From: Natronomonas halophila
GTDB lineage: Archaea > Halobacteriota > Halobacteria > Halobacteriales > Haloarculaceae
Direction of reading: 5' to 3'
Assembly: GCF_013391085.1 (NCBI RefSeq)
Contig: NZ_CP058334.1
Coordinates: 1,798,001-1,862,000, forward strand
DNA length: 64,000 nt
Part shown: positions 22,541 through 24,804 of the stretch, piece by piece
How positions within the stretch are numbered: the first letter of the stretch is position 1
Layout: each line of letters begins with the position of its first letter
Program-made: the position numbers and the translations under genes
The notes under the pieces: model-generated
Told to the model about the DNA's origin: nothing
The model's input: only the letters and a program-made list of their open reading frames with translations
The model's database searches: none

Positions 22541-22638
22541 AGGCTTCCTTGGTGACGAGTGGACAAAACCTGTCGGCTTCATTTATAAGTCGAGCGTGAC
22601 GACTTCCTGACCGCAAACAGGCGACTCTCTAGCCGCAA

Positions 22639-22760
22639 ACAGCCGGAAAGCCCTCGGCCCGGAGACGGTCGCTAAGGAGGATATCCTCGCTCGCGTTGCT
22701 CGCTCGGATAGGGCCTCCTTAGCGACTATATAAACGCCTCCGGGCCTCGCCCTTTCATTC
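22639..22760. repeat. Long hairpin with internal TATA box (left part of palindromic element)
   Basis: GTCGCTAAGGAGG (22668-22680) and CCTCCTTAGCGAC (22714-22726) are a perfect 13-bp inverted repeat; TATCC (22682-22686) and GGATA (22706-22710) continue the stem inside. Outside, GGCCCGGAG at 22657-22665 pairs with CTCCGGGCC at 22738-22746 and GAAAG with CTTTC. A strong TATA sequence CTATATAAA starts at 22725, right at the right arm, and would place a transcription start near 22755-22760 on the plus strand. I recall similar sequences dispersed in other haloarchaeal genomes. Confidence 0.7.
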
Positions 22761-23100
22761 CTCCAGGGACCGCACAACCCTGCCCTTCCCCGGGTCGGAT
22801 GGTCGGCCGTGCGGCCGACCCATCCTCCCGGCCAAGTGTTTATTTATAAATGGCGCGCGCTGGCCGACCGCCGCGAGCAGAACGCGAGCGGCGGTCAGGC
22901 CGGCCAGCGCGCGAGGGACGACCGACTGAGCGCAGCGAAGGAGGGAGTCGGTTGGGGAGGTTCGTGGTGCGGTCGCGGTGCTGTCCTGATGGAATCGAAG
23001 GGCGAAGCCGGGTAGCGCTTGTCTTGGGCGCTCAGCGGGCACTACTCGACCGAAGGGAGAGTATCCCGCTGAGCGACCGCCAGCCGGCTGAGGGCTTCGG
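22755..23100 (+). other. Candidate structured non-coding RNA region upstream of trpS
   Basis: The ~680-bp gap between the HTH-10 gene and trpS has no convincing protein frame but a series of nested palindromes. GGTCGGCC/GGCCGACC at 22801-22808/22813-22820; GCGCGCTGGCC/GGCCAGCGCGC at 22855-22865/22902-22912 enclosing GACCGCCGC/GCGGCGGTC at 22866-22874/22888-22896; ACCGACT/AGTCGGT at 22921-22927/22946-22952; and CGCTCAGCGGG/CCCGCTGAGCG at 23029-23039/23065-23075 enclosing TACTC/GAGTA. A second TATA-like TTTATTTATAAA is at 22839-22850. Either a structured RNA or a mobile-type repeat island would explain this. Strand is given from the TATA at 22725. Confidence 0.5.
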
Positions 23101-23223
23101 GGGTAGTGTGGTCGAGACAGTCGCCACGCTTTCTTTATAATCAGATACACCACAATCAGACTGCTCCACAAGCCCTCTCACGCAAGCGAACGGTTTTTGG
23201 GCGGACCACCCCGACGGATGCGT

Positions 23224-24804
23224 ATGGCAGACGACGAAACCCACGCTGACGAGGGCACCCCTGCCGGGGCGGACCGCGAGGTCCGACCCGACGGCGGGGC
23301 GAAGGGAGCCGACGACGTTGCCCTCGACCCGTGGGGCTCGTCGACGGTCGCCGACTACCGGAAACTCTTCGACCAGTTCGGCATCGAGGAGTTCGACGAT
23401 GTCCTCCCCGAGGTGCCGACGCCCCACTATCTCATGCGTCGGGGCGTCATCTTCGGCCACCGCGATTACCGCCCCGTCGCCGAGGCGATGGTCAACGACG
23501 AGCCGTTCGCCGCGCTGTCGGGCTTCATGCCGACCGGCGACCCCCACATCGGCCACAAACTCGTCTTCGACGAACTCATCTGGCACCAACAGCAGGGCGG
23601 CGACGCCTACGGCCTCATCGCCGACATGGAGGCCCACGCGGCCCGCGACATCCCGTGGGACGAAATCGACGAACACACCGAGAGCTACCTGCTGTCGCTC
23701 ATCGCGCTGGGTTTCGACCCCGAGGAGGGCGAAATCTATCGGCAGTCGACCAACCGCGACGTTCAGGACCTCGCCTTCGAACTCGGAACGCAGGCGAACT
23801 TCTCGGAGTTGGGCGCCATCTACGACTTCGACGGCGAGACCGAGGTCTCCTACATGCAGTCGGTCGTCACCCAGATGGCCGATATCCTCTATCCGCAACT
23901 GGACGAACCCAAGCCGACGGTCATCCCCGTCGGTCCCGACCAAGACCCCCACATGCGGCTCGCTCGGGACCTCGCCGGTCGGATGCGCTACTTCAAGGTA
24001 ACCGAGGCCTACGCGAGTTTCGAACTCGACGACGGGGAACGTGAACTCGTCGGCCGGGCCTACGAGGCGCTCGCGGCGGACGCCGCCGACCCCGAAACCG
24101 ACGTCCGCTGTACCGACGCCGCCGACTGGCTCGAGGACGAATCGCCGGACCACCCGGCGCTGTGGAACACCGTCGAGAAACTCCGCTCGGGCGGCAAGGA
24201 ACCGCTTCGCCCCCGCGTGCGCTTCCTCGACCGTAACGCGACCGAGGACGCCTTCGAGGCGCTCATCGACGCAGTCGACGGCGAAAAGCGCGTCTACGAG
24301 GGCCACATCGACAGTTTCGACCTCGATGCCGAGGCAGCCGAGGAACTCGCCCGACAGGTCGAGGTCGACCACGGGGGCTACGGCTTCCTGCCGCCGTCCT
24401 CGATTTATCACCGCTTCATGACCGGCCTCACCGGGGGCAAGATGTCCTCCTCGGAGCCGGCCAGCCACATCAGCCTGCTCGACGACCCCGAGGGCGGCTA
24501 CGACAAGGTCAAAGCAGCGACGACCGGCGGCCGCGAGACGGCCGAAAAGCAGCGCGAGTTGGGCGGAAAAGCCGACGAGTGTCCGGTCTACGAACTCTAC
24601 GCGTACCTGCTGGCGAACGACGACGACGATTTCGCCGCCGAGGTCTACGAGGAGTGTGTCACCGGCGAGCGGCTCTGTGGCGGCTGCAAGGAGCAGGCCG
24701 CCGAGTTGATGAAGGAGTTTCTGGCGGAACACCAGGAAAAGCGGGAGGAGGCACGTGAACTGCTGGAAGCGGCCGATATCGAACTCGACAGCCCGCGGAA
24801 GTAA
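23224..24804 (+). CDS. trpS: Tryptophanyl-tRNA synthetase
   Basis: From ATG 23224 the product has 526 residues (ATG 23218 is an equally possible start, adding two residues). The class I signatures are present: GDPHIGHK as the HIGH motif and GGKMSSSEPASH as the KMSKS loop, with the archaeal/eukaryotic TrpRS context VIPVGPDQDPHMRLARDLAGRM. A halophile-typical acidic N-terminal extension and a large acidic insertion (about residues 260-400) make it longer than the ~370-residue archaeal average. CxxC in ERLCGGCKEQA near the C-terminus may bind zinc. TTTATAAT at 23134-23141 is a possible TATA box, giving a leader of about 60 nt. Confidence 0.96.
   Translation: MADDETHADEGTPAGADREVRPDGGAKGADDVALDPWGSSTVADYRKLFDQFGIEEFDDVLPEVPTPHYLMRRGVIFGHRDYRPVAEAMVNDEPFAALSGFMPTGDPHIGHKLVFDELIWHQQQGGDAYGLIADMEAHAARDIPWDEIDEHTESYLLSLIALGFDPEEGEIYRQSTNRDVQDLAFELGTQANFSELGAIYDFDGETEVSYMQSVVTQMADILYPQLDEPKPTVIPVGPDQDPHMRLARDLAGRMRYFKVTEAYASFELDDGERELVGRAYEALAADAADPETDVRCTDAADWLEDESPDHPALWNTVEKLRSGGKEPLRPRVRFLDRNATEDAFEALIDAVDGEKRVYEGHIDSFDLDAEAAEELARQVEVDHGGYGFLPPSSIYHRFMTGLTGGKMSSSEPASHISLLDDPEGGYDKVKAATTGGRETAEKQRELGGKADECPVYELYAYLLANDDDDFAAEVYEECVTGERLCGGCKEQAAELMKEFLAEHQEKREEARELLEAADIELDSPRK

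Follow-up and report, generated by a model that had tools for sequence, protein, structure and literature searches.

The window analysed here, a stretch of 64,000 nucleotides from the Natronomonas halophila genome (contig NZ_CP058334.1), contains a divergent gap between a minus-strand gene with HVO_2928_N and HTH_10 domains and the plus-strand trpS gene (tRNA-synt_1b). This gap is occupied by a composite element, a 560-base stretch at window positions 22582–23140, which is one copy of a dispersed family. The element is bounded by TTTATAA at 22582–22588 and again at 23134–23140, i.e., at the ends of the sequence shared by 16 aligned own-genome copies. A sequence-only reading of this DNA had placed a palindrome-rich element at 22639–23100; this interval lies inside the composite element, whose true extent is slightly larger. 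Its features are the following:

22582–23140, no strand: whole composite element; ends set by the shared sequence of the 16 aligned copies (47% deviation in the left flank versus 0.4–2% in the core motifs)
22646–22662, plus: outer stem P1, 5' strand (GAAAGCCCTCGGCCCGG); pairing with 23083–23098 read from the sequence
22668–22726, no strand: left palindromic hairpin with a perfect 13-bp stem; 12 of 13 extracted copies fully paired, five variable positions
22727–22734, plus: TATATAAA, the TATA of the sequence-only reading, a non-conserved linker (7 of 16 copies)
22732–22767, plus: inner stem P3, 5' arm (CTCGCCCTTTCATTCCTCCAGG), pairing with 22985–23020
22779–22833, minus: core B (CCGGGAG-hairpin-CGACCCGGGGAAGGGCAGG on the minus strand); in 15 of 16 copies, alone in locus L050
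22843–22850, no strand: TTTATAAA, self-complementary, between both cores; read from the sequence and from copy comparison
22846–22974, plus: core A; 77.7 bits with covariance model R1, the window copy being one of the sequences from which R1 was built
22853–22913, plus: core A hairpin 1; inverted repeat and covariation
22917–22949, plus: core A hairpin 2, ladder GAC-GA-CC-GA ... GG-GA-GTC; Watson-Crick and tandem G.A pairs
22950–22967, plus: GG tracts 3' of the ladder (GGTTGGGGAGGTTCGTGG); conserved alignment columns, putative G-quadruplex
22985–23020, plus: inner stem P3, 3' arm, pairing with 22732–22767
23026–23078, no strand: right palindromic hairpin; inverted repeat
23083–23098, plus: outer stem P1, 3' strand (GCCGGCTGAGGGCTTC), partner of 22646–22662; pairing read from the sequence

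Of the inverted repeats reported earlier, the three with named positions were all found: 22668–22680/22714–22726 (13 nt, 100%), 22854–22869/22898–22913 (16 nt, 94%) and 23026–23039/23065–23078 (14 nt, 93%). They are accompanied by larger nested arms at 22732–22767/22985–23020 (36 nt, 75%) and 22646–22667/22735–22756 (22 nt, 77%). The folding energy of 22757–23140 lies 6 sd below that of 100 dinucleotide shuffles, all of them folding less well, and the hairpin at 22655–22740 has a folding z of –2.56. The palindromes of the element are genuine and non-random. As had been supposed, no convincing protein frame is present: the frames at 22850–23137 (plus strand) and 22758–23171 (minus strand) have no Pfam family match. 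No tRNA was detected within the element, and no Rfam covariance model overlapped it at E values up to 1; in four other loci searched against Rfam at gathering scores, tRNA was the sole match.

Minus-strand BLAST pieces show that the left half of a copy can be aligned, when inverted, with the right half of other copies; hence the element resembles an inverted pair of units, the left one with core B on the minus strand and the right one with core A on the plus strand. At the left end of the window copy (22600–22643), about 22 bases are duplicated in tandem (CGACTTCCTGACCGCAAACAGG / CGACTCTCTAGCCGCAAACAGC), and a longer repeated left end occurs in other copies, e.g., at locus L006.

The genome of N. 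halophila consists of one contig of 3,211,682 bases, in which a BLAST search with positions 22583–23230 returned 65 matching pieces. Long matches between own-genome copies are 72–83% identical, and no near-identical long copies were seen. Covariance model R1 found 19 core A matches. The own-genome alignment comprises 16 of 30 fetched loci; in many copies the shared sequence begins and ends at TTTATAA, and outside it the copies are unrelated. Among 15 of these copies, the unpaired motifs deviate by 0.4–2%, the hairpins by 12–16% and the sequence outside the element by 47%. Core B, present in nearly all of the aligned copies, also occurs on its own in a genome of another family. Two end types were observed among the own-genome copies, TTTATAA...GAGCTTGGCGACT and one with ACTCAAAAGGGACC (on the right in L004, L009, L013 and L014, on the left in L010 and L012), and these may mark two sub-families.

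The outer and inner parts of the element vary in different ways. The left outer hairpin is fully paired over 13 bp in 12 of 13 own-genome copies despite its variable positions, and shows no wobble pair; this count covers 13 of the 16 copies, the remaining three not fitting the extraction pattern. Such a pattern is expected of a DNA-level palindrome. For the right hairpin, five of nine copies were extracted out of register, and the wobble count obtained there (10 and 10) is set aside. An own TATA had been proposed near 22725, and the motif TATATAAA does stand at 22727–22734, but it was rejected as the promoter of the element, being present in only 7 of 16 own-genome copies with other letters elsewhere. 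At the start distance that we assume for haloarchaeal promoters in general, a transcript from TTTATAAA would begin inside hairpin 1.

Core A has Watson-Crick and tandem G.A pairs in alternation. Among 122 distinct matches to a pattern of the core (GAGGGAYGASCGA-N5-35-ARTCGGYTGGGGAGG), the two positions of one pair that vary independently were T-A in 92, C-G in 25, T.G in 5 and C.A in none, and the next pair, whose second partner is unconstrained by the pattern, was G-C in 93, C-G in 17, G.T in 11, G.G in 1 and C.A in none. Together, these two pairs yield 16 G.T wobbles and no A.C. The covariation analysis that had been suggested for the copies gave a strong signal. In alignment A1, 12 core pairs were paired in 96.8% of cases, with a covariation of 0.382 versus 0.149 after shuffling; for 18 pairs, including the inner stem of hairpin 1, the values were 90.2% paired and 0.455 versus 0.165 shuffled, with slid versions not exceeding 0.103. 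The tandem G.A on the right side, mostly free of the pattern, was kept in 83–84 of 84 sequences. Besides, new compensated pairs were seen in 20 BLAST-derived copies that had not been chosen by motif, namely A-T at 101–129 and T-A at 102–128, each in 3 of the 19 parsed. Over 15 pairs, 90 G.T wobbles were counted versus 19 A.C, 44 of the 90 lying at one pair; since the copies share ancestry, the p value of this difference is overstated. The G.T excess over A.C nonetheless indicates that the plus strand of core A is the one that folds. That folding strand is RNA or single-stranded DNA, the wobble pattern fitting both. The larger folding energy of the plus strand was discarded as evidence of strand because composition explains it. 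A kink-turn reading of core A was likewise discarded, no three-base bulge being seen beside the G.A pairs in the alignment. The last GG tract after the ladder is invariant in the alignment although free of the pattern, and GG tracts occur in core B too, which suggests that those of both cores could form a G-quadruplex. The substitution patterns in these alignments show that core A is kept for a strand-specific single-strand fold.

These patterns bear on the simplest alternative, namely that the palindromes are due to chance or are kept solely by mutational template switching, without selection. Template switching could account for the continued pairing of the perfect left hairpin. In core A, however, palindrome correction does not produce the conserved unpaired stretches, the kept tandem G.A or the strand-specific wobbles, and chance is opposed by the folding z of –6. 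This explanation is contradicted for core A and is extremely improbable as a whole.

Related sequences had been thought to be scattered in halophile genomes, and the surveys bear this out. The pattern was found in at least 120 DNA stretches, and the 80 matches listed were all haloarchaeal, e.g., from Natrinema, Halosimplex, Halolamina, Haladaptatus, Halococcus, Natronococcus and Natronorubrum. Covariance model R1, built from alignment A1, rests on 84 of 137 core occurrences, 53 being omitted by limits on hairpin length and position. With R1 at an E value of 1e-4, core A was present in 140 of 242 sampled genomes of the class and in 43 of 73 genera; at most 14 candidates were scored per genome in this survey, so that its copy numbers are lower bounds. 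In a survey of the phylum, 29 of 344 genomes were positive, every one in the window's own order. The core A family is dispensable to the class, since 102 of 242 genomes gave no match at this threshold. In three Natrinema genomes, 70, 37 and 40 cores were counted; in this genus the core is found with no outer shell around it, and in Natrinema zhouii 69 of 70 cores lie on the main chromosome versus about 50 expected by its length. In Natronococcus (L131 and L146, L061 and L065), the shell motifs GAAAGCCCCTGG and CCCCTTTCAGTCCCACC stand directly downstream of core A instead of surrounding it; shell and core can therefore be combined in different ways. No viral contig matched the core A pattern and no phage record matched the element, of which few matches were found in plasmid records.

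With regard to genomic context, only 7 of 116 cores in named loci of at least 6 kb overlap a gene called by a codon-usage predictor. For the 97 non-overlapping cores with genes on both sides, the gaps are convergent in 33 cases, divergent in 17 and tandem in 47. No protein family recurs next to the cores: among 777 predicted proteins, no cluster supplied more than three immediate neighbours. In six orthologous pairs among the named loci, the core was kept while the flanks had diverged, both members of each pair having been chosen by motif. Cores less than 700 bp apart are arranged tail-to-tail in 13 of 13 cases (three Natrinema genomes); head-to-head arrangements were found at two Haladaptatus loci and between the two different cores of the window composite. 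In locus L194 (G188:C22, about 1342–1513), CTGTCTCTTATACACATCT stands beside an N between two tail-to-tail cores. We take this to be a Nextera mosaic-end adapter sequence, and the scaffold join consequently looks artefactual.

The position of the element between the start sites of trpS and of the divergent HTH gene could point to cis-regulation of one of them. This reading is very unlikely, and regulation of trpS was rejected because relatives lack the element and copies share no common neighbour. Indeed, none of the 10 same-genus relatives examined carries the element upstream of trpS, one of them being represented by a short stretch only; as the upstream genes mostly differ, the site in these relatives is not a clean empty site.

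A possibility to be taken seriously is that the family is a non-autonomous mobile DNA element of REP/REPIN or PATE type, in which the folded single-stranded DNA would be the substrate of a moving or copying enzyme and any RNA would be incidental. Copies occupy differing sites and come and go between species: at one Natrinema site compared in 29 genomes, the core is intact in 2, a remnant in 1 and absent in 17, with 9 that could not be judged. The perfect outer palindromes, the tail-to-tail arrangement of close cores and the symmetric inverted ends (TTTATAA...GAGC..GGCGACT at both ends, in several copies) are also as expected of such an element. As to a target-site duplication of the MITE kind, the terminal TTTATAA may belong to the repeat or to the target, and no clean empty site was found for a composite copy. 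Against mobility stand the modest identity of the long own-genome matches, the dearth of viral and plasmid matches, the concentration on the N. zhouii main chromosome and the lack of a recurrent enzyme gene nearby. Y1 transposase genes were detected in 166 of 242 genomes, with no association to core A (both in 99, core only in 41, Y1 only in 67, neither in 35; Fisher p 0.48), and in 15 of 45 core-rich genomes no such gene was matched. In the N. halophila genome, one match is to Y1 and three are of TnpB type, and the smallest distance between any of them and a core is 5.5 kb. The terminal inverted repeats were compared, as candidates for a MITE partnership, with the TnpA/TnpB (IS200/IS605) loci of this genome only; the element matched none of the four better than E 0.26, so that the mere homology to a known IS or MITE named by the sequence-only reading as contrary evidence was not observed with these loci. 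In view of the independence from Y1, the lack of TnpA/TnpB similarity and the absence or scarcity of phage and plasmid matches, a RAYT-type system and viral spread are both unsupported. A DNA-level chromosomal role like that of bacterial BIMEs, with palindromes that serve topology or the organisation of the chromosome by forming cruciforms or binding proteins, would agree with the near-confinement to the main chromosome in N. zhouii, the intergenic location with more convergent than divergent gaps, and the perfect outer palindromes. This is rather improbable: core A folds on one strand, which is unexpected for a cruciform, and three Natrinema genomes show no orientation bias relative to replication.

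Among described systems, PATEs are the nearest named haloarchaeal kind and REP/BIME the nearest bacterial kind by lifestyle. PATEs, the palindrome-associated transposable elements of haloarchaea, are likewise non-coding, dispersed and of similar length in the available parts of PMC3119063, and the left and right hairpins of the element match their near-terminal palindromes. By the definition given there, however, PATEs have no inverted ends, and their palindromes are related to IS605-type transposons, whereas the element has inverted ends and is unlike the TnpA/TnpB loci of its own genome, which are those that the comparison covered. The element also differs in its covarying core common to 43 genera. 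In the accessible text of PMC10544981, expression from one strand is described for a 489-bp PATE of a Halorubrum virus and its host, and a PATE of Halobacterium is referred to as ncRNA. Bacterial REP/BIME/REPIN sequences with TnpA-REP (RAYT), as presented in the consulted sections of PMC6006769, share the many intergenic chromosomal copies and foldback units, often in inverted pairs. REPs are defined there as a short hairpin preceded by a GTAG or GTGG foot, and are described as species-specific. Core A differs from them in its roughly 120 positions, its conservation over many genera and the lack of a link to Y1 genes. Haloarchaeal MITEs and SMRs resemble the element in their inverted ends and lack of coding capacity (PMC3119063, parts available); no known transposon with the element's ends was found, and the element differs in its conserved internal core. 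Structured RNA candidates from comparative genomics (e.g., PMC2864571) share strong covariation, several helices and no protein frame, but the element has no Rfam match and no word in the text of PMC2864571 begins with 'Halo'. Full-text searches, including the letters of the core and covering literature other than subscription journals and preprints, returned no published description of the family, and it is unmentioned in the available portions of PMC3733652, PMC2841640 and PMC3402447. An overlap with the 22 unassigned conserved Halobacteria sRNAs reported in the accessible part of PMC7002113 is possible.

Taken as a class of sequence, the element is best read as a REP/PATE-like dispersed palindromic repeat with a conserved strand-specific fold, as judged by comparing copies, and a core that is probably transcribed. 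The explanation that we tentatively prefer, at somewhat below an even chance, is a dispersed non-coding intergenic repeat whose core A RNA would work through its fold. The folded strand would be RNA made from the copies. It would most likely act through a host protein that it binds, with no particular neighbour gene as its target, and the outer hairpins, perfect palindromes without wobbles, would form a shell at the DNA level that either serves the spread of the element or is a remnant of it. The spread over copies and genera, the covariation, the sign of the wobbles, the kept G.A, the compensated pairs, the conserved unpaired motifs, the lack of a recurrent neighbour and the precedent of PATE expression speak for this explanation. 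The lack of a conserved promoter, the compatibility of G.T with single-stranded DNA, the left hairpin without wobble and the absence from 102 of 242 genomes speak against it. A bolder version is doubtful: core A would be a new haloarchaeal ncRNA class, with about 20–70 structured main-chromosome copies in some species and a Watson-Crick/tandem G.A helix ending in a G-quadruplex, serving a host protein as a platform present in many copies throughout the genome.

Haloarchaeal intergenic DNA is left mostly blank by annotation. The present analysis shows that a repeat occurring in 43 of 73 sampled genera is maintained for its strand-specific fold, without a gene partner and with hardly any trace in plasmid and viral records. 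If transcribed, core A would be a large new archaeal RNA class; if a single-strand DNA element, it would be a case of REP-like biology that lacks Y1, the enzyme believed to drive REPs. For tests, a concrete structure and a covariance model are at one's disposal, together with growable host species.

Finally, the orientation of the cores relative to replication was considered. In the N. halophila genome, 15 of 19 cores point towards the orc1 cluster (permutation p 0.05 with all origins allowed); a replication-orientation bias was dropped, since the three Natrinema genomes show none (p 0.33–0.91). In the same genome, two places (447461–448450 and 488665–489654 of the contig) have equal scores for the orc1/cdc6 family and lie 41 kb apart, a pair that looks like a duplicated gene.
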